Below, piece after piece: positions 43,838 through 62,729 of a DNA stretch of 64,000 nt. Positions within the stretch are counted from its first letter, which is position 1. The number at the start of each line of letters is the position of its first letter. Source of the stretch: a bacterium (GTDB lineage: Bacteria; Actinomycetota; Acidimicrobiia; Spongiisociales; Spongiisociaceae). The position numbers and the translations under genes are program-made. The stretch is from NCBI GenBank assembly GCA_028820935.1, contig JAPPHZ010000029.1:1-64000 (forward strand). The letters run 5' to 3'. Below the pieces are notes generated by a model that was given only the letters and a program-made list of their open reading frames with translations, searched no databases and was not told the origin of the DNA.

Positions 43838-44172
43838 GGTGGTCTGTCTGCGAAACAGCCAGGCGTGTTCTGGCGGTCATCGGCGTCCCGTCGCTGCGTT
43901 CCGTTTCCTTGACGTACCGCTGCGGGCACGCCTTCGTCAGCGGGCCTTGCGAGGAACACCGCTGCCGACGCCTTACCACACCGCCATTCCACAGACAGAC
44001 CACCGTGGTCTGTCTGCGAAACAGCCAGGCGTGTTCTGGCGGTCATCGGTGTCCCGTCGCTGCGTTCCGCTTCCTCAACGTACCGCTGCGGGTACGCCTT
44101 CGTCAGCGGGCCTTGCGAGGAACACCGCTGCCGACGCCTTACCACACCGCCATTCCACAGACAGACCACCAG
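43838..44172. repeat. Repeat C: 166-bp unit in tandem, with inverted ends
   Basis: Two units (43838-44004 and 44005-44172) with a period of 166 bp. Each begins GGTGGTCTGTCTG (the first G shared at the junction) and ends CAGACAGACCACC. The junction is a 25-bp palindrome, CAGACAGACCAC-C-GTGGTCTGTCTG. I count five differences between the units, all transitions. Open frames crossing it on both strands look like by-products. Confidence 0.92.
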
Positions 44173-46039: not shown

Positions 46040-46630
46040 CTAGATCCGGCGGGCCATCATCTTCTCGACCACGCCGCCGATCGTAGTGGTGAACACTTTC
46101 AGGGAGATGTCGCTCAACTCCTCCGAGCAGTCGGCTTGCGCGAAGGTCAGAGGCTCGGCGAGGCGTGCCCAATGCGGGGCCAGCGCGTTCGGGCCGGTCA
46201 CGCCTCCCTTGCCGACGTCGGTCGCTACGTAGAGGGTGGTGGTGACAGCCGAGTTGATGATCCTGATCGTGCACATCTCGCACGGTTCGAGCGAGGTAAT
46301 CAGGGTGTGACCCCTCAGATCCCCTCCATCCGGATGCGCGTCCTCGTACAGGTTCAGCGCCGACATCTCGGCGTGGAGGTCGCTCCTGAACCTCGGCGCC
46401 AGCATCCGGTTGCGGTCGCTGACCAGGACCGTTCCGCCGGGGTCGAGGATCAGGCAGCCCACCGCGGCGTTGCCCTCGAGTCCGCCCGTGATGGCTTCCT
46501 GGATGGCCTGGCGGGCGATGGCGTCATGCGGTCTCGCTCCGTCAAAGGCCTCAACGCGTTCCCGCAGGTCGAGCAGTTGCTGTTTCGTCTCGGCCGGGAT
46601 GGTCCCGGCCCCATCAGGATGTAAGCTCAT
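46040..46630 (-). CDS. Cytidine/deoxycytidylate deaminase-family zinc deaminase
   Basis: A 196-residue deaminase. ATG 46630 gives a normal N-terminus; the frame's upstream extension has no family similarity. The zinc site is complete: HAEMSAL (near 108, His and catalytic Glu) and SLEPCEMCTIR (near 135). The type resembles guanine/nucleoside or tRNA-adenosine deaminases (PCEMC). It is divergent from the amidohydrolase operon, with a 151-bp shared upstream region. The substrate could be a base or heterocycle of the same pathway. Confidence 0.88.
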   Translation of the reverse strand: MSLHPDGAGTIPAETKQQLLDLRERVEAFDGARPHDAIARQAIQEAITGGLEGNAAVGCLILDPGGTVLVSDRNRMLAPRFRSDLHAEMSALNLYEDAHPDGGDLRGHTLITSLEPCEMCTIRIINSAVTTTLYVATDVGKGGVTGPNALAPHWARLAEPLTFAQADCSEELSDISLKVFTTTIGGVVEKMMARRI

Positions 46631-46781
46631 ATCGTGCCCAGGTTCTACTGCGCGCTCCCGTTGCTTGTCAACCGGCAATTGCTCGGAGTGAGGAACCGGG
46701 CAGCGTCGCTCCGGGCCACCAGCGCGGTCTTGACCCGGGGAGATGGCGAACCGACGGCTTGAAAGGACGGAGTTCGGGCAT

Positions 46782-48392
46782 ATGGCGGGACAACCTCTCG
46801 ATCTGGTGGTAACCAACGGCACGGTTGTGATGGGAGGCGGACGCTACCGGGTGGCGGTCGGCGTCAAGGACGGCAAGGTGGCCATGCTCGCACCCGAGGA
46901 GTTGATGCCGGCCGCGGCGCGGACCATCGACGCCCGCGGGAACTACGTGCTCCCCGGCGTGGTGGACTCCGAGGCCCACCCCGGGTGCTACGTGCCGTTC
47001 GACTACGACATGACGACGGAGTCGAGGGCCGCTGCTACTGCCGGCATCACCACTTGGGGGATACAGGCGCCGACCACTCGTCTGGGTACGAAGCCTTTCA
47101 AGGAAGTAGTGGGTCGGGCCGATGTGGTCTCTTTCAACGAGTCGTTTCCGTCAGGGCGAGATGTGATCAACGAAGTGAGTCATGTCGATGCGTACCTGAC
47201 CTACATGCTCGAGACCGACGAGCACGCCCGGGAGATCCCCCAGTACGCCGAGGAGCACGGGGTCACCTCCTTCAAGCTCTACCTGCAGACCCGTTCGATG
47301 AAGGGCATGTCGGACGAGGACGACACCAACTGGCCGTCCCGGCGGGCCGGTCTGGGCACGGGTATCGACGACGGTACGGTCTACCTGGTGATGGAGGAGG
47401 TCGCCCATATCGGCCATCCGGGGATCGTTCACATCCATCCCGAGAACTGGGAGATCGGGCGGATCTTCGAGGACCGCCTCCGGAGTAGCGGCCGCACCGA
47501 CTTCGGTTCGTGGACCGACCGCTCACCCGATTTCCTCGAGGCGCATCACGTCCGCTCCTACGCCTACCTGGCCATGCAGACCCCCGGCCACGTTCCTCTG
47601 TATCTCCAGCACTGCACCACCAAGCTGTCCTTTGAGGAAGTGGCCCGGGCCCGCGCCGAGGGCCTGGAGCTGTACGCGCAGACCGGTCCGCCGTGGTTGT
47701 GGGCCGAGCCCGAGTACGGCTGGAGGATCAACGTCCCACTCCGTCGCAGGGACAACATCGAGGCGCTCTGGGTGGCCCTGGCCGAAGGCATCGTGGATGT
47801 GGTCGGGTCCGATCACGTGGTGGGATGGGAGCCGTCCTCCCACGAGGAAATGTACAACCCGGTTATCTGGGACTGCCGTACCGGGTTCTCGAGGGTGGAG
47901 TTGTTCTTGCCAGTGATGCTGTCGGAAGGGGTCAACAAGGGCCGTATCAGCCTCGAGCGGGCCGTCCAGGTCAGTTGTGAGAACCCCGCCAAGACCTCCG
48001 GCCTCTGGGGGACGAAGGGCTCGCTCCTGCCGGGATTCGACGCGGACATGGTGATCATCGACCTGGGTCGGGAGGTGAACGTCGGCAAGGAGCACATCAA
48101 CACCCGGTCCGGCTGGTCGATCATGGAGGGCCATACCTTCACCGGCTGGCCGATCATGACGATCCTGCGGGGCGAGGTCAGCGCGGAATGGGCGGATGAC
48201 TCCCCCGGGATGCGCCCCGTCGGGGAACCGCGGGGCCGTTACCTACCTCGCAGGCTGGGGCCCAGCCATCAGGTGCTGGACGCCAACAGCCCTGCCCGGG
48301 TGGCGCCCACCCACCGCTGGCTGGCCGACGACTTCGCTCGCCCCGGCTTCGCTCCCGAAACCACCAGGTACACCCGTCCGATAGGAGGGTAG
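46782..48392 (+). CDS. Dihydropyrimidinase/hydantoinase-like amidohydrolase with altered first metal motif
   Basis: A 536-residue cyclic-amidohydrolase relative. ATG 46782 is preferred to 46743 by family N-terminus. The bridging lysine (SFKLYLQ, near 164), metal His in HIHPENWEI (near 217), LQHCTTK (near 275) and Asp in VGSDHVVG (near 342) are all present. The first HxH motif, normally DPHVH, reads DSEAHPG (near 62): one His is Glu. It is longer than usual (about 460-480). It starts the operon and probably opens a cyclic amide, hydantoin or pyrimidine ring; the changed ligand makes this uncertain. Confidence 0.88.
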   Translation: MAGQPLDLVVTNGTVVMGGGRYRVAVGVKDGKVAMLAPEELMPAAARTIDARGNYVLPGVVDSEAHPGCYVPFDYDMTTESRAAATAGITTWGIQAPTTRLGTKPFKEVVGRADVVSFNESFPSGRDVINEVSHVDAYLTYMLETDEHAREIPQYAEEHGVTSFKLYLQTRSMKGMSDEDDTNWPSRRAGLGTGIDDGTVYLVMEEVAHIGHPGIVHIHPENWEIGRIFEDRLRSSGRTDFGSWTDRSPDFLEAHHVRSYAYLAMQTPGHVPLYLQHCTTKLSFEEVARARAEGLELYAQTGPPWLWAEPEYGWRINVPLRRRDNIEALWVALAEGIVDVVGSDHVVGWEPSSHEEMYNPVIWDCRTGFSRVELFLPVMLSEGVNKGRISLERAVQVSCENPAKTSGLWGTKGSLLPGFDADMVIIDLGREVNVGKEHINTRSGWSIMEGHTFTGWPIMTILRGEVSAEWADDSPGMRPVGEPRGRYLPRRLGPSHQVLDANSPARVAPTHRWLADDFARPGFAPETTRYTRPIGG

Positions 48393-48396
48393 ATAG

Positions 48397-49152
48397 ATGG
48401 CCATCTGGGACGACGTCCTCACCGAGACCGATCGGACGGTCTTCGCCGCGGCCGGATGGGGCAGGCGGGCCGGATACGGCGAGCGTCCGGCCATCATGGT
48501 CATCGACGTCAACTACAACTTCTGCGGGGACCGGGCTGAGCCCATCCTCGAGTCGATCGAGCGGTGGCGCTACTCCTGCGGGCCCGAGGCCTGGGAGCGG
48601 GGGATCCCTGCCATCCAGGACATCCTCGACGTGGCCCGCGCCAAGCGCCTCCCGGTCATCTACACCACCAACCCCCGCCGCCCCGACGGCTTCGACCTGG
48701 GGATCTGGTCGCTGAAGAGCACCAGGGCGGAGGACGAGGTGGACGTGATGGGACACAAGGGCAACGAGATCGTGGCCGAGGTGGCGCCGCGGCCCGACGA
48801 CCTGTTCATCGAGAAGCGCAAACCCTCTGCCTTCTTCGGAACGCCGCTGGTGAGCCACCTGACCATGATGAGGGCCGATTCGCTGATCCTCACCGGCACC
48901 ACCACCAGTGGATGCGTCCGGGCCAGCGCGGTGGATGCCCTCTCGAACGACTTCAAGGTGACGATTCCGCACGAGGCAGTCTTCGATCGCGGCGAGGTGT
49001 CACACAAGATCGCCCTTTTCGACCTGCATATGAAGTACGTGGACGTGACCGACCTGGAAGACGTCCTCACCTACCTGAGGGGCCTGCCGGCGGGCCTGTT
49101 CGACGACACCTATCCGCCCGCCGGGGCGGCTGCCGGGAGGGAGTTGCTGTGA
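48397..49152 (+). CDS. Isochorismatase-family amidase
   Basis: A 251-residue cysteine hydrolase, 4 bp after the hydantoinase-like gene. The triad is Asp in IMVIDVNYNF (near 36), Lys in FIEKRKPSAFFG (near 139) and Cys in GTTTSGCVRASA (near 172). The TTTSGCVRA motif is that of N-carbamoylsarcosine amidase and related amidases (maleamate, ureidoacrylate). Following a ring-opening hydrolase, it may cleave the resulting carbamoyl or amide group. It shares only the fold with the isochorismatase-like gene at 23496. The stop overlaps the next start. Confidence 0.92.
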   Translation: MAIWDDVLTETDRTVFAAAGWGRRAGYGERPAIMVIDVNYNFCGDRAEPILESIERWRYSCGPEAWERGIPAIQDILDVARAKRLPVIYTTNPRRPDGFDLGIWSLKSTRAEDEVDVMGHKGNEIVAEVAPRPDDLFIEKRKPSAFFGTPLVSHLTMMRADSLILTGTTTSGCVRASAVDALSNDFKVTIPHEAVFDRGEVSHKIALFDLHMKYVDVTDLEDVLTYLRGLPAGLFDDTYPPAGAAAGRELL

Positions 49153-49730
49153 GCCTGGACTTTTCCATCAGGAAGGTCATCACCCAGGTGGAGGAGGAGC
49201 GGATCCGGGAGGGGATCGGAGCAGATCCGCCGCTGCGCAAGGCGGTGGTGGCGGCCGCGATCCACAATCCCTACTCCGGCAGCTACCACGAGGACCTGTC
49301 CGAGGCGGCCGAGTTCTCGGTCGGTCTGGGTCGTATCCTCGGGGAGATGGCAATGGATACCCTGGGAGAGCCGGTGGTGTCCTACGGCAAGGGAGGGATC
49401 GCCGGCCTCGATGGTTCGCAGGAGCACGCGGTCATGTTCCTTTCCACCGCCTTCGCCAACCCGCTCCGCCAGACCCTGGGCGGGGGAGTGGCCTGGATGT
49501 CCTCGGCCACCATCGTGGCGGTGGCCGGAACCCCGATCACCATCCCGCTGGCCCACAAGGACGCCCTCTACGTCCGCGATCACTACGACGCCATCACGCT
49601 GTATCCGGGCGACGCGCCCCGGGCGGACGAGGTGCTGGTGGCCGTGGCGGTCGCCAACCGGGGGAGGCCCAACGCCCGGATGGGTGGCCTGGCGCCCGAG
49701 GACGTGATCGGCGAGGACGGACTGCGCTAG
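49149..49730 (+). CDS. AA_synth (DUF1185)-family protein
   Basis: A 193-residue soluble protein starting at GTG 49149, in a GTGA overlap with the amidase. The blocks VSYGKGGIAGLDGSQEHAVM, TLGGGVAWMSSATIVA, IPLAHKDALYVRDHYDAI and GRPNARMGGLAPEDV match the AA_synth family (PF06684). Family members often sit beside amidohydrolases and oxidoreductases in catabolic clusters, but I know of no established reaction. The name amino-acid synthesis rests on weak evidence in the literature. Confidence 0.85.
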   Translation: MSLDFSIRKVITQVEEERIREGIGADPPLRKAVVAAAIHNPYSGSYHEDLSEAAEFSVGLGRILGEMAMDTLGEPVVSYGKGGIAGLDGSQEHAVMFLSTAFANPLRQTLGGGVAWMSSATIVAVAGTPITIPLAHKDALYVRDHYDAITLYPGDAPRADEVLVAVAVANRGRPNARMGGLAPEDVIGEDGLR

Positions 49731-49733
49731 GAG

Positions 49734-50930
49734 GTGGTAACACCGCGCCGGACCGCGATCGTCAACATCGGGACCCTGGTCACGGGTGAGTTGGCCGCCC
49801 CGGTCACAGATGCGGAGGCGCTGTTCATAGAGGACGGGTCCATCGTCTCGATCGGATCCTCCGAGGGCCTTGAGCATGCCGACCAGGTGATCGACGCCAA
49901 CGGGGCCACCGTGGGTCCCGGGTTGATCGACTCCCATTGCCACGTTGTCATCGGTGACTTCACCCCTCGGCAGAACGTGGTCGGATTCCTCAGCTCGTAC
50001 GTGCACGGCGGGATAACGCAGGTCATCTCGCCTGGTGAGATTCATGCACCGGGACGACCGCACGATGCCGACGGCGTGGTCGCCCTGGCCGTGTTCGCCC
50101 AACGGTCGTGGAGCAATTACCGGCCCAACGGGATGAAGGTCAACGGCGGGGCGGTGGTGCTCGAGCCGACCCTGCAACCCGAGCACTTCCGTTACCTGGC
50201 CGACCAGGGGGTGTGGCTGGCCAAGTTCGGCTTCGGCCGGTACGACGACCCGGCCGACGGACTACCGCAGGTGCGGGCGGCCCAGGAGGTGGGGATCAAG
50301 GTGATGTGCCACTCGGGTGGGGCATCGATTCCGGGCTCGAAGCCCATCACCACCGATCACCTGATGCTGCTCCGTCCTGACGTGTGCGGCCACATCAACG
50401 GTGGGCCCTCGTCGTTGGACGGAGAGGGACTAATCCGGATCGTGTCCACCACCGATCTGGTGTTGCAGATCGTCCAGGCCGGCAACCTGCGGAGCGCCAT
50501 CGAGATAGTGGAGTCGGTGCTCGAACACGGGGCGGAGCACCGGGTGATCCTCGGGTCGGACACGCCGACCGGAACCGGTGTCATGCCGCTCGGCGTGCTC
50601 AAGACCATGGCCGAGTTGTCCTCTCTCACAGATGCCGATCCTGCCACCGTGTGGGCATGGGCCTCCGGTGTGACGGCGGACGTCTATGGCCTGGATGCGG
50701 GGAAAGTGGAGGTGGGCCGGGCGGCCGACCTGGTGATCGCCGACGCGCCTTGGGGATCGTACGGCGGCGACGCCCTCGGCGCCCTGGCCAGGGGTGACAT
50801 ACCGGGCATCAGCGCGGTCCTCATCGACGGCCGGGTCCGCGCCTTGCGGAGCCGCAACACCCCCGCCGCGGCCCGCCAGGTGACCGTCACTCCCGAGATC
50901 GGTGAGCTCCCCGGCTCGGCCCACGTCTGA
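49734..50930 (+). CDS. Enamidase-like amidohydrolase
   Basis: A 398-residue amidohydrolase that aligns along its full length, from memory, with enamidase (6-oxo-1,4,5,6-tetrahydronicotinate amidohydrolase) of anaerobic nicotinate fermentation. Shared features: NIGTLVTGE at the start, metal motif GLIDSHCHV (near 64), CHSGGASIPGS, GHINGGPSSLDG and SDTPTGTGVMPLG. The start is GTG 49734, 3 bp after the previous stop. Enamidase opens a cyclic enamide to a formyl dicarboxylate plus ammonia. A nicotinate pathway would also need a 6-hydroxynicotinate reductase, not seen here, so the true substrate may be a related lactam. Confidence 0.87.
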   Translation: MVTPRRTAIVNIGTLVTGELAAPVTDAEALFIEDGSIVSIGSSEGLEHADQVIDANGATVGPGLIDSHCHVVIGDFTPRQNVVGFLSSYVHGGITQVISPGEIHAPGRPHDADGVVALAVFAQRSWSNYRPNGMKVNGGAVVLEPTLQPEHFRYLADQGVWLAKFGFGRYDDPADGLPQVRAAQEVGIKVMCHSGGASIPGSKPITTDHLMLLRPDVCGHINGGPSSLDGEGLIRIVSTTDLVLQIVQAGNLRSAIEIVESVLEHGAEHRVILGSDTPTGTGVMPLGVLKTMAELSSLTDADPATVWAWASGVTADVYGLDAGKVEVGRAADLVIADAPWGSYGGDALGALARGDIPGISAVLIDGRVRALRSRNTPAAARQVTVTPEIGELPGSAHV

Positions 50931-51193
50931 ACGCGCCGCCACCTCTCGGGGTGACGATGTACCGCGCCTCCGCAGGTACGGGTCGAGGCACCTGCCTGAC
51001 GGGTTGATGTTGCCGATCACGCGGGAGGCCCTTGCCCAGACCAACTACTATCGCCGAACAGCCCTGCCAGGTGGTCGGCGGTCGCCAAGGCTCCGACCAG
51101 GCTCGTCCTTGTCACTTAGGTGCACTCAGGGCAGGTTCACAACCGCGTCAACAGAGCAGCGGACACCGAGAAGCCGCAAGAGGAGACCGAAAG

Positions 51194-51796
51194 ATGAGCG
51201 GAGCAAACGAAGTAATCGTGCCGGCCCGGGAGGGCCGGGGCGTCTACGTGCGCAAGGGTCAGTTGCTGGACATCGTCGATGTCGAAGGCCACCAGGTGGG
51301 CGACTTGATCGCTTGGTTCCGTAACGATCCCTCCGAGTACCTGTCTCCGACCCACACGGTGTCGTGCAACGCCTCGATCGAGTTGGTCACCGGATCACAA
51401 GTGTTCTCCAACCGCCGCAACCCGGTTTTCACCATCGTTCGGGACGACGTGGAGCGCCACGACATCATCGTGCCGTGCTGTGACCACGAGCGTTTCAAGC
51501 GGGACTACGACCTGGACGATCACGACCATTGCCTGGCCAACCTCTACCAGGCGCGCGACCTGCTCGGGGAGGACTTCGGCTTACACGGCGAGATGGCCTG
51601 GAACGTGTTCATGCACAACCGGGTGACCGACGACGGGGACGTGGTGACCGATCCCGCCGCCCACGACGCGGGTGCCACTATGACCCTTCTGGCCCACGAG
51701 GATCTGGTGGTGCTCCTGTCCGCCTGCCCCCAGGACCTCACCCCGTGCAACGATTTCAACCCCACCTCGATGCTCATGAGGCTTCGGGAGGACTAG
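51194..51796 (+). CDS. DUF1989 (urea carboxylase-associated) protein
   Basis: A 200-residue protein. ATG 51194 is supported by GAGGAGA 8 nt upstream. Family motifs are KGQLLDIVDVEGHQVGDLIA, ETHTV-like SPTHTVSCNAS, CCDHERF, and the conserved SACPQDLTPCNDFNPT. Two DUF1989 paralogues together form carboxyguanidine deiminase in guanidine-degrading bacteria, but here there is only one and no carboxylase, so that function is unlikely. It follows a 263-bp gap after the enamidase-like gene in which I see no riboswitch I know. Confidence 0.87.
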   Translation: MSGANEVIVPAREGRGVYVRKGQLLDIVDVEGHQVGDLIAWFRNDPSEYLSPTHTVSCNASIELVTGSQVFSNRRNPVFTIVRDDVERHDIIVPCCDHERFKRDYDLDDHDHCLANLYQARDLLGEDFGLHGEMAWNVFMHNRVTDDGDVVTDPAAHDAGATMTLLAHEDLVVLLSACPQDLTPCNDFNPTSMLMRLRED

Positions 51797-51826
51797 ACGG
51801 CACAACTAGACGGTAAGGAGGACCTG

Positions 51827-52861
51827 ATGACCACAACGATCCGGTACGAACCGGACGCCGCCCGCCTGGCCGAGTCGGCTCGCAAGATACGCTCGCCGTT
51901 CGAACTCGACCTGTCGCTCCGGTTCTACTCTCCGCAGGCCAACCTCGACGGCATGCAGCATCCGCAGATAGCCGATTGGCATCGCTACGTCGGCGAGGAG
52001 TGGACCCCGCCGCCCACACCGTCCGGCGCGCGACGGGTGGCGCTGCTGATCCCTTGTACCAAATACAAGCCCTACTCGACCAGCCGGGAGCATCGGGCTA
52101 TCAACCGGGCGCTTCTGGAAGCAGGCTGGCTTCCCGACGGCGCCTCCACCGCACCGGCGGGCATGGCCGGCCACCTCGACGGTGGGGAGAGCCCGGATCT
52201 CCTCCACGACGGACCGCTCCGGCGCGGAGACGTGCTCCTGGATCGGTTCGTGCTGTCGGAGCCTATGGCGATCGTGCCCTATTCCCACATCTACTACTGG
52301 CGAGACGCCCCCAGTCCCGCCGCTTGCTACGACGATCCCGGTCTGTTCGAGGCGCGGGGGACCTCGGTGTCGCCGGAGCGGCCCGACTGCACGGCAACTC
52401 CGCTCGCGAACGGGAAATGGAGGTGGGGTCCGGCGGAGCGCCAGGCGTTCGCCGAGACCCACAACTATCTGGCGGCGATCATCCGCCGATGCCTGGTCAG
52501 GCTGTCACCCTCCTATGCGGAGATAGGGGCGTGGGTTTCGCCGGGACTGACGCACCGCAGCTTCCTGGCCGACGAGGCGTTCCGGCGCGTGGAGGGTCTG
52601 CCGAGGTCCCGTAAGGGCACCACCGGACCCGTCAAGCTGGTCGGGGTCCTGGAGGGCGCTCCGGGCCTGGTCACGATGATGCCCACCCAGGATCAACTCG
52701 AGGACGCCCGCGGTCGCCTGGCGGGCCGGCTGGAGGCGGAAGGTCGTTCAACCACGCCGGCCGCGGTGCGGGCGGTCTATGCGCGCGGGGACGGAAACGA
52801 CACCCCGCTCGGTCTGCCCGAGGCCCTCACCCATCTCACCGGCTGGCTCGACACGGTATGA
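51827..52861 (+). CDS. Uncharacterised protein with a DUF5591-like segment
   Basis: A 344-residue soluble protein with a strong start (GGAGG, 5-6 nt before the ATG). I do not recognise it securely. Residues about 65-100 (VALLIPCTKYKPYSTSREHR, then a helix) and about 145-155 (VLSEPMAIVPYSHI) resemble the DUF5591 domain attached to archaeal archaeosine synthase. The tRNA-modification context is absent. The stop overlaps the aldolase-like gene (ATGA), so it belongs to the catabolic operon. A role on a small molecule is as likely as one on RNA. Confidence 0.75.
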   Translation: MTTTIRYEPDAARLAESARKIRSPFELDLSLRFYSPQANLDGMQHPQIADWHRYVGEEWTPPPTPSGARRVALLIPCTKYKPYSTSREHRAINRALLEAGWLPDGASTAPAGMAGHLDGGESPDLLHDGPLRRGDVLLDRFVLSEPMAIVPYSHIYYWRDAPSPAACYDDPGLFEARGTSVSPERPDCTATPLANGKWRWGPAERQAFAETHNYLAAIIRRCLVRLSPSYAEIGAWVSPGLTHRSFLADEAFRRVEGLPRSRKGTTGPVKLVGVLEGAPGLVTMMPTQDQLEDARGRLAGRLEAEGRSTTPAAVRAVYARGDGNDTPLGLPEALTHLTGWLDTV

Positions 52862-53541
52862 GCGAGGACATGGTCGGGCTGCGGAGCGCCGTAGCCTCGA
52901 CCGCCCGCATGCTGGCTTCCTCCGGGCTGGCCGAGGCCTTCGGGCACGTCTCCGCCCGGACGCCCACCGGGTTCCTGATCACGAGCACCAGCCCGCTGTT
53001 CGAGGCCACGGCTGATGATGTGATCCGGGTCGAGTCCGGCGTACCTGTCGGGGGGCCGACCCACGCTGCTCCGCTGGAGATGCCGATGCACGCTGCCATC
53101 TACGAAGCCCGGTCCGATGTGGGCGCTGTCTGCCGCGGCCATCCGCCCCACGTTGTGACCTGGGGGGTGTCCGCCGAGCCGCTGCCCCTCCTGCACGGGC
53201 TGGGCGGCATGGCGGGCCGGACCGTTCGAACGCACCCGGAAATCGAGTTGGTCAAGACGGCTGAGTCGGGCAAGTCGGTAGCCCGGACGCTGGGGGATGA
53301 TTCTTGTGTCCTCCTGGCCGCCAACGGGTGCCTGGCGGTGGGCGCCGATCTTCTGGAAGCGGCCACCCGTCTGTGGTACCTGGAGGACCGGGCGCGAGTG
53401 GCTGTTCAGGCACGCGGCGCCGGCTTGACCCCGATCACGGTTCGCGAATACACCTGGGCCCGGCGCCTGTCCGACTCCGCACCGGAACTCGTTCGAGCCC
53501 GGGAGTGGATGCGCCGGTCCTTCGCGCCCGACCAGGGGTAA
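52858..53541 (+). CDS. Class II aldolase/adducin-family protein
   Basis: A 227-residue protein of the L-fuculose-phosphate aldolase fold. AFGHVSARTP near 25 and PLEMPMHAAIYEARSDVGAV near 75 are typical. Two metal histidines appear in CRGHPPHVV (near 97), but the third, usually in an NHG motif, is replaced in LLAANGCLAVGA. It may therefore catalyse something other than aldol cleavage, such as decarboxylation or dehydration. It starts in an ATGA overlap and is followed 13 bp later by the aminotransferase. Confidence 0.87.
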   Translation: MSEDMVGLRSAVASTARMLASSGLAEAFGHVSARTPTGFLITSTSPLFEATADDVIRVESGVPVGGPTHAAPLEMPMHAAIYEARSDVGAVCRGHPPHVVTWGVSAEPLPLLHGLGGMAGRTVRTHPEIELVKTAESGKSVARTLGDDSCVLLAANGCLAVGADLLEAATRLWYLEDRARVAVQARGAGLTPITVREYTWARRLSDSAPELVRAREWMRRSFAPDQG

Positions 53542-53554
53542 GGAGCAACCCATC

Positions 53555-54820
53555 GTGAGCGATCCCACCGGCAAGCGACTCGACCACCGCCCGGAGATGT
53601 CTGCCCGCGAGGCCGACGCCTACCGGAACGACTTCGTCCGCCACCTCTGCCAGACCGTTCCGGGCATCAAGGAAAGCGTGATCGTGGACGCGGCCGGCTG
53701 CTCGCTCAAGACCGCCGAGGGCCGCGTGCTGCTCGACATGATCTCGGGCATCGCGGTCTCCAACCTCGGTCATTGCCATCCGGCGGTGGTGAAGGCGGTC
53801 CAGGATCAGGTAGCCCGGTTCGCCCACGTTGACGTGTACGGCCGGTTCACCCTTCCCCCGCAGGTGGAGATCGCCCGGCGGCTGGCCTCGGTCACGCCCG
53901 GCGATCTGGATGTGGCCTTCCTTACGAGTACCGGCACGGAGGCGACGGAGGGCGCGCTGAAGCTGGCCCGCAAGTACACGGGCCGTCCGGGGTTCGTCGC
54001 GTTCCAGCGTTCCTTCCATGGGCGGACGTTCGGCTCCCTCTCCGTGACCTGGCGGGAGGAGTGGCGCAAGCCCTTCGAGCCCCTCCTGGAACCGGTGCGC
54101 TTCGCTCCCTTCGACGACCTCGAGGCGGCTGACCGGGTTATAGACGACGCCATCGCCGCGGTCATCGTCGAGCCCATCCAGGGCGAGGGCGGCGTTCGCA
54201 TCCCTTCGGATGCGTTCCTTCCGGGGCTCCGGGAGCTCTGTACCGAACGGGGTGCGCTGCTGATCTGCGACGAGGTCCAGGGCGGTATGGGGCGCTCCGG
54301 CAAGTGGTTCTCATGCCAGCACTGGGGGGTGACACCCGACGTGATCACGGTGGCCAAGGCATTCGGGGGCGGCCTACCCCTGGGCGCGTTCATCTCGACC
54401 GCCGAGATCTTCTCCACCTTCCTCGACCCGCCCCTGTCCCACCTGACCACCTTCGGCGGCAACCCGGTCTCCTGCGCCTCCGCCGTGGCAGCCTTCGACG
54501 TGATCCGGGGCCAGGGCCTGGTGGAGAGAGCCGCGGAGATGGGCGAATACCTCCGGAGCGGTCTCCGTTCGGTCCGCCGGTCCCATTCCGACACGCTGGC
54601 GGACATCCGGGGCATGGGCCTCTGGTGTGCCTTCGACGTCCAGCCTGCCCACCTGGCTCAGCCCCTGGTCGAGGAGATGGCCCGCCGCGGGGTAGTGGTC
54701 GGATCGATGCTCAACTCGGCGGGAACGGTTCGGGTGGCCCCACCGCTGGTGGTCGAGCAGGAACACATCGACCGGTTCCTCGGGATCCTGGAAAGCTCCC
54801 TGAACGCCCTGGAGGGCTGA
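53555..54820 (+). CDS. Class III (omega/GABA-type) aminotransferase
   Basis: A 421-residue PLP enzyme starting at GTG 53555 with TAAGGAG upstream. GHCHPAVVKAV near 71, SFHGRTFGSLSVTW near 152, EPIQGEGGVRIP near 208, ICDEVQGGMGRSGKW near 236 and the PLP lysine in TVAKAFGGGLPLGA (near 268) define the family. Such enzymes move amino groups between omega-amino acids (GABA, beta-alanine) and keto acids. This fits a product of cyclic amide cleavage. The stop shares one base with the next start (TGATG). Confidence 0.93.
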   Translation: MSDPTGKRLDHRPEMSAREADAYRNDFVRHLCQTVPGIKESVIVDAAGCSLKTAEGRVLLDMISGIAVSNLGHCHPAVVKAVQDQVARFAHVDVYGRFTLPPQVEIARRLASVTPGDLDVAFLTSTGTEATEGALKLARKYTGRPGFVAFQRSFHGRTFGSLSVTWREEWRKPFEPLLEPVRFAPFDDLEAADRVIDDAIAAVIVEPIQGEGGVRIPSDAFLPGLRELCTERGALLICDEVQGGMGRSGKWFSCQHWGVTPDVITVAKAFGGGLPLGAFISTAEIFSTFLDPPLSHLTTFGGNPVSCASAVAAFDVIRGQGLVERAAEMGEYLRSGLRSVRRSHSDTLADIRGMGLWCAFDVQPAHLAQPLVEEMARRGVVVGSMLNSAGTVRVAPPLVVEQEHIDRFLGILESSLNALEG

Positions 54821-56214
54821 TGCCGCCTTCCGTTCCTCCCGGCGAGCAGTTGATCGTCCGGGGTGCCTGGGTGCTGACCATGGGACCCGGTGGCGCCCTC
54901 GAGGATGGGGCCGTCCATATACAGGATGGCGCGATCACCTCGGTGGGTCCCTACCGGGAGCTGAGAAGGCGGCATCCGGAGGCGACGGTGGTGGGCGACG
55001 AGCACAGCATCGTGATTCCGGGTCTGATCAACGCCCACACCCACCTCTCCGAGGCGCTTATTCCCGGTATGGGCTCCGAGCTGACCCTCTACGAATGGGG
55101 AGAACGCCTGGTCACGCCCGTCTCGAGGAACCTGACCGCGGAGATGGCGCGGGAAGGGACCATCCTGAAGGCCGCCGAGATGATCCGTTCCGGGATCACC
55201 TTCGTCAACGACATGTTCGTCCACTCCAATCCCGGCACCCGGGCTTCGCTGGGCGTGGTCGAGGGCCTCGCGGAGGTCGGTCTTCGCGGAGCGGTCAGCT
55301 TCGGCGCCGAGGACGCGCTGGGAGACACCTCCTCGGCTCCCCCGATGACGGTGGAGGAGGTCCTCGAGGAGCACCACGATCTGGCGGATGCCGCTCTGGA
55401 GTCCGGCCTGTTGGGCTTCCGCTACGGGATCGGAACCCTGCTCGGGCAGTCCGACGAGCTGCTCGAAGCCGGAGCGGCGGCCTGCCACGAGAACGGCTGG
55501 GGGGTTCACACCCATCTCTCCGAGGTACGGGAGGAGGTTGTCCACGCCTCCTTGCGGTGGGGGCGGCGCCCGGTGTCCCAAGCCGGTCATCTGGGCTTCC
55601 TGGACGTGCCGCTCCTGGCCGCCCACGCCATCTGGGTGACCCAGGAGGACATCGACATCCTGGCGGGGGCGAGGGCGGGGATAGCCCACAACCCGGTGGC
55701 CAACATGATCCTTGGTTCGGGCGTGTGCCCGCTGGCGCGGCTACGAGCCGCGGGCCTCGAGGTGGGGATCGGAACCGACGGGGCGGCTTCCAACGATTCC
55801 CAGAACATGCTCGAAGCCGTGAAGATGGCCGCCCTCCTCCAGAAGGTTCACGAACTGGATCCCGTAGTGATCTCCGCCGAGACGGTGCTGGAGATGGCCA
55901 CCATCGGTGGCGCCAGGGTGCTGGGCGTCGACAGCCGGGTGGGCAGCCTGGAAGCCGGGAAGCGGGCCGACCTGGTACTGCTCCGGGGAACGGTCGAGCT
56001 GGCCGCCGTCCACGACCCCTACCAGCAGGTCGTCTACTGCGCCGGTCCGGGCTCCGTCAGCGACGTCTGGGTCGATGGCCGCCGGCTTCTCGCGGAACGA
56101 TCCCTGACCACCGTAGACGAGCCCGCCCAGATCGCTCGCGGGCGGGCCCTGGCCCGCGCGGTTGCTCGTAAGGCGGGGCTGAGTGGGGTTCACTCGTTCC
56201 TACGAGGGTCCTGA
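54820..56214 (+). CDS. SsnA/TRZ-ATZ-type amidohydrolase (heterocycle deaminase family)
   Basis: A 464-residue metal-dependent hydrolase; the frame extends upstream but ATG 54820 in the TGATG overlap is the natural start. All ligands are present: HTHLSE (near 73), VHTHLSEVREE (near 230), AAHAIWV (near 268) and GTDGAASND (near 317). This group deaminates or dehalogenates N-heterocycles (cytosine, guanine, methylthioadenosine, triazines). It is the third amidohydrolase type in this operon and the only one with a fully canonical site of its subfamily. Confidence 0.92.
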   Translation: MPPSVPPGEQLIVRGAWVLTMGPGGALEDGAVHIQDGAITSVGPYRELRRRHPEATVVGDEHSIVIPGLINAHTHLSEALIPGMGSELTLYEWGERLVTPVSRNLTAEMAREGTILKAAEMIRSGITFVNDMFVHSNPGTRASLGVVEGLAEVGLRGAVSFGAEDALGDTSSAPPMTVEEVLEEHHDLADAALESGLLGFRYGIGTLLGQSDELLEAGAAACHENGWGVHTHLSEVREEVVHASLRWGRRPVSQAGHLGFLDVPLLAAHAIWVTQEDIDILAGARAGIAHNPVANMILGSGVCPLARLRAAGLEVGIGTDGAASNDSQNMLEAVKMAALLQKVHELDPVVISAETVLEMATIGGARVLGVDSRVGSLEAGKRADLVLLRGTVELAAVHDPYQQVVYCAGPGSVSDVWVDGRRLLAERSLTTVDEPAQIARGRALARAVARKAGLSGVHSFLRGS

Positions 56215-56217
56215 GAA

Positions 56218-57792
56218 GTGACCCGGGTGGCGGTGATCGGTGGGGGCCACAACGGCCTGGTCTGCGCGTGTTTTCTTGCCAACGCGGGTCTCGACGTCAC
56301 CGTTTTCGAGGCCAACGCGACGGTGGGCGGGTGCATATGGACCGAGCAGCTTCCGTCCGGCTACCGCCTGGAGCGGGGTGCCATCGACCACGGCATGATC
56401 CTCGGTATCGCCGATGAACTCGGCCTGGGACGGTTCGGCCTGGAGTACGCCTTCCGGGATGTGTCGGTCGGCGCCGGCTTCGGCGACGGTACCCGGCTGT
56501 TTTTCCACAGGGATCTGGCACCGACCCTGGCAGGCTTCGGCGGCCTCGACCCCGCAGACATCGAGGGCTACCGGCGGCTGGCGGAGCTGGGAACCGGTCT
56601 GCTGGGAATGATGGATGCCTTCGTCACCCCGCCGTCGCTCTCCCAGATCGCCGAGCTGGGGTCCGTTGCCGGATTCGACCCGCTCCGGACGGTTCTGGCC
56701 TCGGCGGAGAAGTTGGTCGCCGCCCATGTCGCCGATCCGCACCTGGCCGCTGCGCTAACGATGTACGGGGCGTTCAGCCAGGTCCCTCCATGGCTGCCCG
56801 GTAGCGGCCTGTTCGGCCTGCTGCTGGCCGGTTCGCACGGCCACGGGGCAGGGCGCCCGATCGGCGGCTCCGTCCAGCTCGTCAACGCCCTGGTCCGCGC
56901 CCTTGAGTCCGCCGGTGGGAAGGTCCGGACATCCGCGGTGGTCGCTTCGATCGATCGGTCGGGCGCCGAGTCGAGGATCACCACCGCCCAGGGCGACACC
57001 GCCATCTTCGACCGGGTCGTCTCGGCGCTCGACGTGGCGCGCACAGCCCGGCTCTTGGCCGAACCCGTGCCCGAGCTCGACGAGGCGGCCCGGATGGTGA
57101 CCAGCGGATCGCTCAATGTGGCGGAGTTCAAAGTGGACCTGGCGCTGTCCGGCGGGGCCGAGCCCGGCCAATTCGGCCACCCCGAGGCGATCTGGCTGCT
57201 GCAGCAGACCCCCGCCTCGATGGCGCGGTCCTTTGGCGAGATAGCCGCCGGCACGTTTCCGTCGGAACCGGCCATGCTCTGGGCCTCTCCCTCGGCCATG
57301 GACCCGTCGGCCGCGCCCGCGGGAGGTGGCGTCGCCTGGCTGTCGACCTTCGTGCCGGCCCGCCTCCGGCATGGGGAATGGACCGGCGCGGAGGTGTCGA
57401 GGCAGGCGGAGCGGGTGATCGACGGTTACCAGGCCATCACAGGCGTATCAGTCAGGGACCGGATCGTCGACCAGCGGATCACCGGCCCTCTGGACTGGGA
57501 GAAACGCACCGGCGCCAGGTTCGGCAATCCCAACCACATCGACATGACCATCGACCAGATGTTCTCGCTCCGGCCCGGCGCCGGCCGCGGCTACCGGACC
57601 GCCATCCCCTGGCTCTACCTGACAGGGGCCGGCACCTTCCCCGGCGGAGGCTTGTCCGGTGTGCCGGGCAAGAACGCCGCGCTGACCGTACTCGACGACC
57701 TGGGCCGTAGCCGGTCACGGCAGGCTGGGCCGTCCACCATCTCGGCGCTGGTCCGAGGTTGGCGCTTGTACCGGTCGCTGAGGAAGCGATGA
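56218..57792 (+). CDS. Phytoene desaturase-like FAD-dependent oxidoreductase
   Basis: A 524-residue flavoprotein from GTG 56218. The N-terminal dinucleotide motif AVIGGGHNGLVCACFLANAG and downstream ATVGGCIWTEQ fit the phytoene dehydrogenase/amine-oxidase-like group; the C-terminal FAD contact is GAGTFPGGGLSGVPGKNAA (near 478). No other carotenoid gene is near, so it more likely oxidises a product of the operon. Its stop overlaps the methyltransferase start. Confidence 0.88.
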   Translation: MTRVAVIGGGHNGLVCACFLANAGLDVTVFEANATVGGCIWTEQLPSGYRLERGAIDHGMILGIADELGLGRFGLEYAFRDVSVGAGFGDGTRLFFHRDLAPTLAGFGGLDPADIEGYRRLAELGTGLLGMMDAFVTPPSLSQIAELGSVAGFDPLRTVLASAEKLVAAHVADPHLAAALTMYGAFSQVPPWLPGSGLFGLLLAGSHGHGAGRPIGGSVQLVNALVRALESAGGKVRTSAVVASIDRSGAESRITTAQGDTAIFDRVVSALDVARTARLLAEPVPELDEAARMVTSGSLNVAEFKVDLALSGGAEPGQFGHPEAIWLLQQTPASMARSFGEIAAGTFPSEPAMLWASPSAMDPSAAPAGGGVAWLSTFVPARLRHGEWTGAEVSRQAERVIDGYQAITGVSVRDRIVDQRITGPLDWEKRTGARFGNPNHIDMTIDQMFSLRPGAGRGYRTAIPWLYLTGAGTFPGGGLSGVPGKNAALTVLDDLGRSRSRQAGPSTISALVRGWRLYRSLRKR

Positions 57793-58760
57793 TCGTCAAC
57801 GACTGGCAGCTCATCGAGCTGCTGACCGGATACCAGCCTGCCGCGGCGATCACGACCGCCCACCGGCTGGGCGTGTTCTCCGCCCTCGGGAGCGCTCCTC
57901 GGTCGGCCGGTGAGCTCGCGGCGGAGTTGGCGGCGGATCCTTCCAACCTGGCGGCCCTGCTGGAGGCGCTGGTCGGGATCGGCCTGCTCAAGGGGGACGG
58001 CACCCGGTATACGGCCACTCCCTACTCAGTCGAGCGTCTGGGTCCGGGCGGAGAGATGGGCCTGGTCGTGGCCAAGGAGGCGGTGTTCGCCGGAGCCTGG
58101 TCTCGTCTCGACGAGGTAGTGACGGGAGGGCGCCCGGTGGTGGAGCCTTGGCGATCCCAGTTGGACGGGAATCCCGAGCAGGCCCGAGCCTTCCTGGACG
58201 CGCTCGATGTTCTCGCCAGGATCGGTGGACCTCCGCTGCACCAGCTTGCCGAACTCGCCCCTGGGAAGCGGGTCCTCGACGTGGGTGGTGGGCTCGGAAC
58301 CTACGCCCGCCGCCTGTCCGAAGCGGGCTCTCATGTCACGCTGGTCGACTACCCCCTCGTCGCCCGCTGGGCGGGCGAGGAGTTGGAGGGCACGGGAGTG
58401 GAGGTGGTCGGGGTGGACCTCTTCGAGCACCCTTCCTGCGGGGTCCCACCCGGATCGATGGACGCCGCCCTGGTGTCCCATCTGATCCATGACCTCACCG
58501 AGGAGCGGGCGGTGCAACTGCTGCGGAGGGTGCGGTCGGCGATCGCGACGGGAGGCCACGTAGTGGTCAACGACTTCGCCGGCGACAGCGGTCCGGGAGC
58601 GTTCGGCCCCCTCTTCGATGTCATGATGAGGGTCGAAACCGGCGGAGCGGCCCATTCGAGAGCAACCCTGGAATCCATGCTGGCCCGGGCCGGGTTCGAG
58701 GGAATCAGGCGGTTACCGTACGACGATCCCCTCACGGTCTACACAGGCGTCAGGCCATGA
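57789..58760 (+). CDS. SAM-dependent O-methyltransferase (COMT-like)
   Basis: A 323-residue methyltransferase. ATG 57789 overlaps the previous TGA. The N-terminal winged-helix dimerisation domain (ITTAHRLGVFSAL; PSNLAALLEALVGIGLL) is followed by the Rossmann domain with the SAM motif RVLDVGGGLGTYA (near 168), VSHLIHDLTEERAV (near 235) and GHVVVNDF. It resembles actinobacterial natural-product methyltransferases (TcmN/hydroxyneurosporene type). It is the last gene of the cluster and, with the desaturase-like gene, is unexpected in a purely catabolic operon. Confidence 0.9.
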   Translation: MIVNDWQLIELLTGYQPAAAITTAHRLGVFSALGSAPRSAGELAAELAADPSNLAALLEALVGIGLLKGDGTRYTATPYSVERLGPGGEMGLVVAKEAVFAGAWSRLDEVVTGGRPVVEPWRSQLDGNPEQARAFLDALDVLARIGGPPLHQLAELAPGKRVLDVGGGLGTYARRLSEAGSHVTLVDYPLVARWAGEELEGTGVEVVGVDLFEHPSCGVPPGSMDAALVSHLIHDLTEERAVQLLRRVRSAIATGGHVVVNDFAGDSGPGAFGPLFDVMMRVETGGAAHSRATLESMLARAGFEGIRRLPYDDPLTVYTGVRP

Positions 58761-58920: not shown

Positions 58921-59304
58921 TCAGGATCTTTTGGAGTCAGTCCCTTCCCGGTAGGCGGGGCTGTTGATCACGAGGTAGGTGAAGTTCCCGGCGCATTCGT
59001 ACGGGACTCCTCTAGGGATGAGGATGAAATCACCGGGACCGAATCCGCGAGGCGGTTCGTCGCCGACTTGGGCAACTCCGTCGCCCTCCACGATGAACAT
59101 GGCACGATCGGTCTCTTCGTTGGAGGACCGGCGGAGGCGCCCCCAGATCCTGACATGTGTGATGCTCAGCGAAGGCGTCTCGTCCGGCATCGCGAAGGCA
59201 GGGTCGCGTGCTCGGGATCCGATCACCTTCTTCATCACAATGGTGTCCCGGTCCGGCCCGATCTGGGTGATCGCTGGGACCTCGGCGAGACTTATCACCG
59301 GCAT
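58921..59304 (-). CDS. Cupin-fold protein without metal ligands, paralogue 1
   Basis: A 127-residue single-domain cupin. ATG 59304 is preferred (GAGGGAAG upstream, and the paralogue starts with the same MPVIxL). The cupin core reads RAMFIVEGDGVAQVGD and FGPGDFILIPRGVPYEC. The usual HxH(x)nE and final His are replaced (EETDRA; PYEC), so a metal-free, ligand-binding or regulatory role is inferred. It is a tandem duplicate of the gene at 59463. Confidence 0.85.
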   Translation of the reverse strand: MPVISLAEVPAITQIGPDRDTIVMKKVIGSRARDPAFAMPDETPSLSITHVRIWGRLRRSSNEETDRAMFIVEGDGVAQVGDEPPRGFGPGDFILIPRGVPYECAGNFTYLVINSPAYREGTDSKRS

Positions 59305-59462
59305 GGGTGCTTCCCTCAAACTCGAGTCCGTTCTCGGAGAATCGTACATCCAGACCCTCTTCCACGTAGCAAGGGCGCCTTGGAATCAAGGGATCAGAGC
59401 CCCCTCGGAGGGTCGGGGCCGTTAACCGGCAGATTCACGAGTTGTGGTCTCGCGAAAGACTC

Positions 59463-59876
59463 CTAAGTCGTCCTCACCGGCGCGCCGTCGTATGCAGGGT
59501 CTCTGAGGTCGGATCCCTCCCGGTAGGCGGGACTGTTGATCACCAGGTAGGTGAGGTTCCCCTTGAACTCGTAGGGAACCCCTCTGGGTATGAGGATGAA
59601 ATCGCCCGGCCCGAATCGCTGTGGTGGGTCGTCGCCGACCCGGGCGATGCCTTCCCCGTCCACGATGAACATGGCGCGGTCTGTCTCATCGCAGGTGATC
59701 TGTTGCAGCCTGCCCCAGATCTTGATGTGGGTAATGCTGAGCGAAGGCGTCTCGTCGGGCATGGCGAACGCGGGATCGCGCTCCTTCGATCCGATCGCCT
59801 TCTTCATGACAAGTGTGTCCCGGTCGGGTCCTATCTCGGCGATCTCCGGCACGTCTTCGAGTCTTATGACGGGCAT
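59463..59876 (-). CDS. Cupin-fold protein without metal ligands, paralogue 2
   Basis: A 137-residue cupin, strongly similar to its neighbour (GPDRDTxVMKK, DPAFAMPDETPSLSITH, RAMFIVxG, LVINSPAYREG shared). GGGGAGGA lies close before ATG 59876. The metal His are missing here too (TCDETDRA; PYEF). It is the first of the two minus-strand cupin genes and divergent from the solute-binding gene at 60112. Confidence 0.87.
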   Translation of the reverse strand: MPVIRLEDVPEIAEIGPDRDTLVMKKAIGSKERDPAFAMPDETPSLSITHIKIWGRLQQITCDETDRAMFIVDGEGIARVGDDPPQRFGPGDFILIPRGVPYEFKGNLTYLVINSPAYREGSDLRDPAYDGAPVRTT

Positions 59877-60111
59877 TGGTCCTCCCCTGCGGTCAGGAAA
59901 CTTATGAGAGAACCGTACAACCCGGATCGGCTGACCAGGGTTGGTCGTCCAGAGAGTCAATAGCCAGAAACCGACCCGTGCCGGCAGGTAGTGGCTTGTT
60001 ACCCCGAAGGTCATGCATCCGCTCCATTTGGATCTCGACGAGCCAAGACCCGGTCGGGCTCCATCACTCGGCGAGTGGTAGCCTGGAAGGGCCGACCAGA
60101 TGAGGACAGCC

Positions 60112-60873
60112 ATGTATGTCGAGGGTGGATCGACTCTGGACGAGATACTGGATCGGGGCTCCCTCCGGATGCCGATCGAGTTCCTTGGTCACCCCGACAC
60201 GGGCGATCCGCCCGAGATGTATCGCAACCCCGAGACCGGTGAGTCCGAAGGTGTAGCCCCCCGGGTGGGAGCGATGATCGCGGAGGATCTTGGTGTGGAC
60301 CTGGAGATCATCGAGACTCCGTGGCCGGACCAGATTCCCGCCCTGCTGGACGGGGTGGTGGACCTGCTGCCCAAACACACCCTTCTCCCTCAAAGGGCGC
60401 TGCAGCTGGAGTTCGTGGCAGGCCGTCTGATGCAAATACGGATTACGTGCCAGGTACCGGCCGAGCGGGCCGCCAACGGGATCGGGTCGCTTTATCAGGA
60501 TGAGGATGAGCTGAGAATCGGCGTATGGCACGGTTCCAGTAACAGGGACGTGGCGGAGCGCTTCTTCCCCGCTGCGACCATCGTCGAAGCGTCGGAGCCG
60601 ACCCGGTTGCTGCTGGACAGAAGGGTGGATGTCATAGTCGGTGACGCGGTTACCCGGCGCTACCTGGAGCTCAACCCGGAGGTGGCGTTGTTGCGGGAGC
60701 CGGACGGCAAGCTGGTGATCCTGTCGACCGAGTACAACAAGGTGTCCATCCGCCCAGGAGATCCGAGGTTCCTGAACTGGTTGAACAGCTGGTACGACTA
60801 CCGGGACGCGCAGGGCGACATCCAGGAACTGTGCGAAACCTGGTGGGAGAGCTTCATGGCGGACCGCGAGTAG
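60112..60873 (+). CDS. Family-3 solute-binding-like protein lacking a signal peptide
   Basis: A 253-residue protein with the full fold of family-3 (amino-acid-type) solute-binding proteins: TGESEGVAPRVGAMIAEDLGVDLEII near 45-65, WPDQIPALLDGVVDLLP near 70-86, GVWHGSSNRDVAERFFP near 140 and DVIVGDAVTRRYLE near 180. ATG 60112 (GAGGA 5 nt upstream) or 60100 both give a hydrophilic N-terminus, so no export signal is visible. Either it is cytoplasmic, acting as an enzyme or sensor, or an upstream signal-coding part has been lost. Confidence 0.82.
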   Translation: MYVEGGSTLDEILDRGSLRMPIEFLGHPDTGDPPEMYRNPETGESEGVAPRVGAMIAEDLGVDLEIIETPWPDQIPALLDGVVDLLPKHTLLPQRALQLEFVAGRLMQIRITCQVPAERAANGIGSLYQDEDELRIGVWHGSSNRDVAERFFPAATIVEASEPTRLLLDRRVDVIVGDAVTRRYLELNPEVALLREPDGKLVILSTEYNKVSIRPGDPRFLNWLNSWYDYRDAQGDIQELCETWWESFMADRE

Positions 60874-61162
60874 CCAGCGGTTCCTCCCAATGCAGAGGCA
60901 GCTGACCAATACCGGGCGGCTTAGGACTCCGGGAGCGGGCCCTGTTTCCTACCTCATCAGGGTCGCGGTGGGTGTCTCCAAGTACGCTCCTAAACCGGCC
61001 AAGCGAAGCGTGTCCTCAGCGAGCTACTACGCGGAGTCAGGGAGGCGAATGGGAGTCATCACGGTCAAGGGTGCTAGTTGAGAAGGCGGCCGACACAACG
61101 GCTCAGTCAGGCGACCACGATCCCTCTGGGTAGGTCGTGGAGGATCCTCGGACCCGGTCGCG

Positions 61163-62035
61163 TCAGTCCCTAGTCCGGTCCCGCCGCCTTCGCATAGCGA
61201 CCCGCGAGCCCCGCTCGCGAGCATGATCAGCCGCACTAGTGGTGCCGCTCATGCGGCCGAGTTGTCCACCAGCGTGGCGCGGTGGATGCCGCGAGGTCTT
61301 GGGCGCACTGAACGGCTTGCGTAGCACCCGTTCCAGGAACGCCTCGCGGAACGACCGCTGGGGTCCTTGCGGGTCCTCGTAGCGCAGCACCCTCTCCAAC
61401 CAGGCCGATAGCGCGCTGACGACCAGCACGACGACGACGTAGATCAGGCCCATCACCGTGTAGAACTCGAAGGGGCGGAAGGTCTCGCTCGACCCGATGC
61501 GCGCCACACGGATCAGTTCCAGGGCTCCGATGGCCGACACCAGCGAGGTGTCCATGAACAGCATGGCGAACATATTCGTGGTTGGCGGAATCGCGATACG
61601 CACCGCTTGCGGCAGCACGACGTCTCGGAACGACTGCCAAGCCGTCAGGCCGAGCGCCGCCGCAGCTTCGCGCTGCTCCCTTTGGATCGACTGCAGCGCA
61701 CCGCGGTCTATCTCGGCGAGGTACGCGCCGTACAGGGTCGCGAGGCAGAAGACACCGGCTTGGAAGGGGGTGAGGAGGATGCCCGTCGCGCTGCCGAGGC
61801 TGTAGTAAACCCAAAAGATGTACACGTAGAGGGGTGTCCCGCGGGCGAGCTGCACGTAGCCGGTGGCCAGGCTCCGCGCCACCCGTACGGACGACATCTG
61901 CCCCACGGCGATGACCAGCCCGAGAACGATGGCACATGCCATGGCCACTATGGCAAGGACAAAGGTCATCGTCAGCCCTTCGAGCAACAAATCCGCCCGC
62001 CGCCAGACAGGTTCAAAATCCGGTGTATATCCCAC
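61163..62035 (-). CDS. Polar amino acid-type ABC transporter permease
   Basis: A 290-residue inner-membrane permease, with about five spans and the EAA-loop REAAAALGLTAWQSFRDVVLPQ (around 120-141) of His/Gln-type permeases. The last 60 residues (after AWLERVLRYED) are hydrophilic, basic and Arg/His-rich (HPPRHAGGQLGR ... MRRRRDRTRD), an unusual tail for this family. GTG 62035 is the start. It lies 14 bp after the partner permease in the same operon. Confidence 0.88.
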   Translation of the reverse strand: MGYTPDFEPVWRRADLLLEGLTMTFVLAIVAMACAIVLGLVIAVGQMSSVRVARSLATGYVQLARGTPLYVYIFWVYYSLGSATGILLTPFQAGVFCLATLYGAYLAEIDRGALQSIQREQREAAAALGLTAWQSFRDVVLPQAVRIAIPPTTNMFAMLFMDTSLVSAIGALELIRVARIGSSETFRPFEFYTVMGLIYVVVVLVVSALSAWLERVLRYEDPQGPQRSFREAFLERVLRKPFSAPKTSRHPPRHAGGQLGRMSGTTSAADHARERGSRVAMRRRRDRTRD

Positions 62036-62049
62036 GCATCGGCTCCTAT

Positions 62050-62706: not shown

Positions 62707-62729
62707 TTACACGCGCCTTGGGGGACTCC

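Follow-up and report, generated by a model that had tools for sequence, protein, structure and literature searches.

We have analysed a 64,000-nt stretch of DNA (hereafter, the window) from a 3.3-Mb genome assembled in 51 contigs. Between positions 46782 and 58760 the window carries 11 open frames, all on the + strand and at the positions given by an earlier sequence-only reading of this DNA. Neighbouring genes overlap by 1 to 4 nt or are separated by 3 to 30 nt, with the single exception of a 263-nt gap preceding the DUF1989 gene (spacings in gene order: +4, −4, +3, +263, +30, −4, +13, −1, +3 and −4 nt). The frames and spacings thus confirmed the layout described in that reading, which was of eleven genes on one strand, mostly with overlaps of 4 nt or less, and one 263-bp gap. 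Scanning the gap for a consensus promoter or terminator returned none, which is a weak indicator in an actinobacterium.

The first gene, HYD (46782-48392), codes for a hydantoinase/allantoinase-like amidohydrolase of 536 aa. It is followed by ISO (48397-49152), for a 251-aa isochorismatase-family amidase that is nearest to BiuH/RutB according to Pfam, NCBIfam and family conservation; by AAS (49149-49730), which has a GTG start, overlaps the preceding gene by 4 nt and encodes a 193-aa AA_synth protein (PF06684, 184 bits) of the chorismate-mutase-like fold family; and by ENA (49734-50930), whose 398-aa product is an enamidase homologue. Beyond the gap lie D1989 (51194-51796; DUF1989 protein, 200 aa, 138 bits in Pfam), D5591 (51827-52861), coding for a stand-alone ArcS-domain protein of 344 aa, ALD2 (52858-53541; class II aldolase family, 227 aa) and AT3 (53555-54820), for a 421-aa class III aminotransferase of the acetylornithine/putrescine type as judged by Pfam and NCBIfam. 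The cluster continues with TRZ (54820-56214), FAD (56218-57792) and OMT (57789-58760), which encode a TRZ/ATZ-type deaminase/hydrolase of 464 aa, a CrtI/CrtO-like flavin oxidoreductase of 524 aa and a Methyltransf_2-type O-methyltransferase with a dimerisation domain (323 aa), respectively. The Pfam families Amidohydro_1 (three proteins), Isochorismatase, AA_synth, DUF1989, Aminotran_3, the CrtI/CrtO-like FAD oxidoreductase and Methyltransf_2 were confirmed. The family calls of the sequence-only reading were borne out by Pfam and NCBIfam; the eleventh gene, ALD2, was missing from its title.

The cluster does not end at position 58760. Past the end of the window, the same contig carries related genes at ~67.7-74.1 kb, namely those for a second enzyme of the TRZ/ATZ type, a member of the nitrilase superfamily (CNH) and an ABC importer (~67.7-73.6 kb) and for an HDAC-like deacylase (~73.0-74.1 kb). 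No aldehyde dehydrogenase could be placed in the window's own cluster. Divergent from HYD, a gene on the − strand (46040-46822) codes for a dCMP/guanine-deaminase-type protein (PF00383); a gene of this kind occupies the same place in Acidimicrobiia relatives (63-93% identity), and none was seen outside them. Directly downstream of OMT there are two tandem small cupin-domain genes with 74% mutual identity (58921-59349 and 59463-59963, − strand). The cluster is also adjoined by a polar amino-acid-type ABC transporter (60100-63600; binding protein on the + strand, two permeases and the ATPase on the − strand), which is kept only in L021 among the relatives scanned. An apparently non-coding stretch at 43839-44170 consists of two direct tandem copies, 97% identical, of a 166-nt unit.

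Conservation of the cluster and exchange of its modules

Relatives of D5591 were present in 15 of 149 related genomes, the nearest named ones being Acidimicrobiia MAGs. A scan of genome_contigs with one genome per species yielded 55 loci with full-length relatives, spanning Actinomycetota (Acidimicrobiia and others), Chloroflexota and Alphaproteobacteria, and an additional relative is found on a Rhizobium plasmid. The carriers include the cultured genera Kaistia, Bradyrhizobium, Martelella and Parvibaculum. We have annotated the locus neighbourhoods by tblastn, using the proteins of the window and of Rhizobium as queries; the resulting labels are limited by this query set, and genes at locus ends may have been missed. 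Over the 55 loci and three phyla, D5591 relatives nearly always adjoin the same enzymes, and the conservation of the cluster is far beyond chance.

HYD, ISO, AAS, ENA, D1989 and ALD2, the latter as a putative class II aldolase-type decarboxylase, constitute what we call module A. It lies beside D5591 in 24 loci, that of the window included, from Acidimicrobiia, Actinocorallia, Chloroflexi and two Alphaproteobacteria. The sequence-only reading had named neighbourhood conservation as one check on its proposal, which a lack of co-conservation would have refuted; these loci show that the genes are co-conserved. Gene order and orientation within module A are rearranged in Chloroflexi (L039, L040), in L045, in L032/L034 and in the Alphaproteobacteria (L070, L072).

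Beside D5591 in 24 other loci is a different set, module B, with an HpaB-type monooxygenase, a flavin reductase, an amidase, a PuuE-like hydrolase (CDA), another TRZ/ATZ hydrolase, an AMDase-like protein, a flavin monooxygenase and a protein that we call X. ALD2 was found in 21 loci and X in 26, both together in none; HYD (17 loci) and the PuuE-like CDA (18 loci) never share a locus either. At least three module changes are needed on the maximum-likelihood tree of D5591. Based on these mutual exclusions and on the repeated changes, we read modules A and B as two interchangeable ways to break one ring system. Around one conserved gene, two entire ring-opening modules stand in for each other, as do two unrelated putative decarboxylases. 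Non-orthologous replacement is seldom this clear, and it makes the pathway steps testable whatever the substrate.

TRZ, FAD and OMT are all present in the same 8 of 30 non-redundant loci and jointly absent from the rest, and they occur with either ring module; they are thus a separable sub-module. This does not agree with the single linear route of the sequence-only reading, “finished by” desaturase and O-methyltransferase steps. The second TRZ, the nitrilase-superfamily enzyme and the ABC importer (binding protein, permease and ATPase) form another unit in the relatives, and the HDAC-like deacylase, the aminotransferase and an aldehyde dehydrogenase are co-conserved in many loci. The minimal loci, from Acetobacterales, hold only an amidohydrolase, FMO, HpaB, amidase, X, D5591 and a binding protein. 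Since the aminotransferase is absent from them, processing of an amine chain is not universal.

The ArcS-type domain of D5591

The window's D5591 carries three motifs, PCTKYKPYSTSREH (residues 76-89), SEPMAIVP (144-151) and YDDP (168-171), which in the general form PC-x3-KPY-x2-S-x2-H, SxP[LM]xxVP and YDxP are found in this order in 43 of 43 members compared. The PF17884 (DUF5591) profile matched all 43 at E<0.1 (best 1.3e-8), the alignment being restricted to the initial third of the profile. The window protein alone scored 25.4 bits, against a 26-bit cut-off, and 27.4 bits in the genome search. By hhalign, D5591 aligned over residues 40-172 with a Sulfolobus-virus DUF5591 protein (E 7.7e-11) that carries all three motifs and is named queuine tRNA-ribosyltransferase in RefSeq. 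In Haladaptatus, DUF5591 is fused to a TGT domain, and the sequence comparison of D5591 with this protein gave no alignment beyond the motif region; the overall similarity of D5591 to ArcS is likewise confined to the motifs. We have rejected the identification of D5591 as a full ArcS, given its length of 344 aa, the absence of a TGT match and the 27 bits reached with the NCBIfam ArcS models (cut-offs of 600 and 440). The AlphaFold model of D5591 (pLDDT 94) had no credible match in a fold search against the PDB.

D5591 is therefore like ArcS in the three motifs and the Pfam match of every member, but unlike it in being a stand-alone bacterial protein, without the TGT-like part, that is encoded within catabolic clusters. 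The retention of all three motifs in every member suggests that the chemistry is kept on a similar base. Archaeal ArcS transfers lysine to preQ0 in tRNA, and the Thermococcus kodakarensis enzyme acts on preQ0 nucleosides and nucleotides and not on the free preQ0 base (PMC11298593). A cysteine-thioimide route has been shown for QueF and QueF-like enzymes (PMC5485725), and by analogy with it Cys77 of D5591 is likely the nucleophile. Following ArcS and QueF-type chemistry, this residue would attack the base at a nitrile, amide or amidine carbon. An enzyme family of archaeal tRNA modification is now linked with catabolic clusters of three bacterial phyla. The archaeosine-synthase motif, module B, the putative decarboxylase role of ALD2 and the continuation past the window all go beyond what had been read from the sequence alone.

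DUF5591 was also encountered in other surroundings. In the Sulfolobus viruses STSV1/STSV2, a gene for a DUF5591 protein of the stand-alone kind is found near that for thymidylate synthase (L086:1423-1980), and a Synechococcus phage “acid phosphatase” (L092:3569-4558) has a DUF5591 domain (39.3 bits), so that its annotation looks wrong. The D5591 gene of an Ilumatobacter MAG is found near a ring-opening gene of the AtzD/TrzD type (barbiturase/cyanuric acid hydrolase family; L058:9977-13790).

Relationships of the remaining enzymes

ENA could be aligned end to end with the nicotinate-pathway enamidase of Eubacterium barkeri (2VUN, E 2.7e-106). At the positions that we take to be the metal ligands of this family, the HxH motif, both His and the Asp are kept, whereas a Lys stands in ENA in place of the bridging Glu. 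The other functions of E. barkeri nicotinate fermentation are absent from the families found in the cluster. The full-length homology of ENA, together with the co-conservation of hydantoinase, amidase, TRZ/ATZ and DUF1989 proteins in three phyla, supported the earlier suggestion that an N-heterocycle or lactam is opened and hydrolysed.

AAS probably helps to open or tautomerise an enamide or lactone form; an AtzD-like function, considered in view of a related fold, would be speculative. TgnF, a protein of trigonelline catabolism, belongs to PF06684 as well. Another member, HcdD (7-hydroxycoumarin), has its gene in an operon for coumarin catabolism and was described with TgnF as a homologue (PMC7913881). 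AAS shares the family with both proteins, but differs from them in being paired with an enamidase. Adjacent AAS-ENA pairs recur outside these clusters (L088:11395-13179 and L089:11399-13194) as a putative two-gene enamide-opening unit, beside a Rieske dioxygenase and a molybdenum hydroxylase in Thermomicrobium roseum and beside a flavin monooxygenase and an ABC importer in Agrobacterium vitis.

The cluster follows the hydantoinase-like plus amidase/carbamoylase logic of hydantoin, allantoin and reductive pyrimidine operons, with a PuuE-like enzyme in module B. However, HYD and ISO score far under the curated cut-offs of those families: HYD had 185 of the 393 bits set for D-hydantoinase, its best NCBIfam match, and 170 of 631 and 153 of 358 bits for allantoinases, and ISO had 41 of 378 and 50 of 370 bits for RutB and biuret amidohydrolase. 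The families identified in the cluster include no dihydropyrimidine dehydrogenase or Rut gene. D1989 was also below the UAAP/carboxyguanidine deiminase cut-offs, with 107 of 284.7 bits (UAAP2) and 69 of 206 bits.

The nearest NCBIfam model to ALD2 is 3,4-dihydroxyphthalate decarboxylase (PhtC), and X matched the 4,5-dihydroxyphthalate decarboxylase 9JP7 with a TM score of 0.87 and 30% identity. The mutually replacing ALD2 and X thus resemble dihydroxyphthalate decarboxylases, the former as a PhtC-type class II aldolase and the latter with the Pht5-type binding-protein fold, and are two unrelated enzymes for what is likely one step. Unlike in phthalate systems, other phthalate genes were not found around them. 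The AMDase-like protein of module B fits the AMDase/EutA type and keeps only the C-terminal one of the two catalytic Cys of maleate isomerases. The missing N-terminal Cys weakened the sequence maleimide, maleamate, maleate and fumarate, which we had considered as the end of module B. Importers of relatives are of the NMT1/THI5 type, with nearest solved relatives binding thiamin and formylaminopyrimidine, or of the BMP/PnrA type (Chloroflexi and some Acidimicrobiia).

Proposed route and candidate substrates

There is good support for the breakdown of an N-heterocycle that carries an amine. The fuller reading, a catabolic cluster for such a compound built around a stand-alone bacterial protein related to the ArcS catalytic domain, is in our judgement a likely one. 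The compound would enter through the ABC importer encoded just outside the window; the HDAC-like deacylase would remove an acyl group, and AT3, with the aldehyde dehydrogenase in relatives, would convert a CH2-NH2 side chain to a carboxylate. TRZ-family enzymes may then take off the ring amino group, and ALD2 would decarboxylate the ring, a step that falls to X in module B. HYD, or in module B the PuuE-like enzyme, would open a ureide or amide ring, and the linear amide or carbamoyl product would be hydrolysed by ISO and CNH, or by the amidase. D1989 could take off the amidine nitrogen, and AAS and ENA would cleave the cyclic enamide that is left, yielding a semialdehyde and ammonia; in module B, the HpaB-type oxygenase would deal with this last ring.

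As to the substrate, we tentatively favour a base of the 7-deazaguanine type (preQ1, preQ0 or 7-carboxy-7-deazaguanine, for example), because its ring has every feature that these steps call for (an aminomethyl or carboxyl group at position 7, an amino group at position 2, a pyrimidinedione once deaminated, and a pyrrole convertible to a pyrrolinone, i.e. a cyclic enamide), and because D5591 links the cluster to this family of bases, ArcS acting on preQ0 nucleotides. Against it count the inactivity of T. kodakarensis ArcS on the free base, the lack of a TGT-like part and of a PDB fold match for D5591, and the HDAC-like, FAD and OMT genes, for which this route has no clear step. The minimal loci lacking an aminotransferase, the AMDase-like protein with its missing Cys, the failure to place an aldehyde dehydrogenase in the window's own cluster and the lack of riboswitches also weigh against the proposed reading. 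A dedicated catabolism of 7-deazaguanines (preQ0, preQ1, queuine and archaeosine bases and related antibiotics), with the ArcS domain acting at the 7-substituent and the pyrrolopyrimidine being dismantled interchangeably by hydrolysis (enamidase, to the semialdehyde) or oxidation (HpaB-type), is more speculative still and rather unlikely in this full form. If the substrate is a 7-deazaguanine, the cluster may mark an undescribed pathway for breaking down such bases and would answer where these widespread compounds go in nature. The literature that we searched on DUF5591, 7-deazaguanine catabolism, pterin deaminase clusters and thiamine catabolism held no matching cluster and no description of 7-deazaguanine ring catabolism. 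The search of 21 loci for preQ1, TPP or other riboswitches found none.

Another heterocycle with an exocyclic amine (a pterin, an N-alkyl aminopyrimidine, an s-triazine-like compound or a 2-aminoimidazole), with D5591 as a distant ArcS relative of different activity, is a possibility that we take seriously, if with reserve. The TRZ/ATZ, AtzE-like amidase and BiuH-like enzymes are reminiscent of routes for triazines and purines, the Ilumatobacter D5591 is encoded near an AtzD/TrzD-type hydrolase, and the restriction of the ArcS similarity to the motifs would be compatible with a changed activity; the invariance of those motifs, however, argues for a similar base.

A thiamine-type pyrimidine (4-amino-5-aminomethyl- or hydroxymethyl-2-methylpyrimidine and its N-formyl form) could be deformylated, oxidized at the 5-side chain to a carboxylate, deaminated, decarboxylated and opened by hydrolysis. 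Such a substrate fits the importer and the side-chain steps. The ligands of the solved relatives of the NMT1/THI5-type protein, the jointly kept deacylase, aminotransferase and aldehyde dehydrogenase, and decarboxylase families that act on hydroxy-aromatic acids are all consistent with this route, yet we regard it as improbable: it leaves the ArcS-type domain without a role, the NMT1 family is broad and similarity to it is weak evidence, the BMP-type transporters would better fit nucleosides, and the loci searched have no TPP riboswitch. Pyridoxal degradation was set aside, with a pyridoxal 4-dehydrogenase gene near only three alphaproteobacterial loci and not co-conserved.

Two or more unrelated operons lying merely side by side in this genus are very unlikely: the 263-nt gap, the occurrence of AAS-ENA alone with other oxygenases and the separability of TRZ-FAD-OMT would allow for them, but HYD, ISO, AAS, ENA, D1989, ALD2 and D5591 stay together after rearrangement in Chloroflexi and Alphaproteobacteria. 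We give least credence to a biosynthetic cluster in which the desaturase-like FAD protein and the O-methyltransferase finish a modified natural product, since, common as CrtI/CrtO-like and Methyltransf_2 enzymes are in biosynthesis, the genes include many hydrolases and decarboxylases and adjoin ABC importers, one hydrolytic module is replaced by another, and FAD and OMT are absent from most loci.
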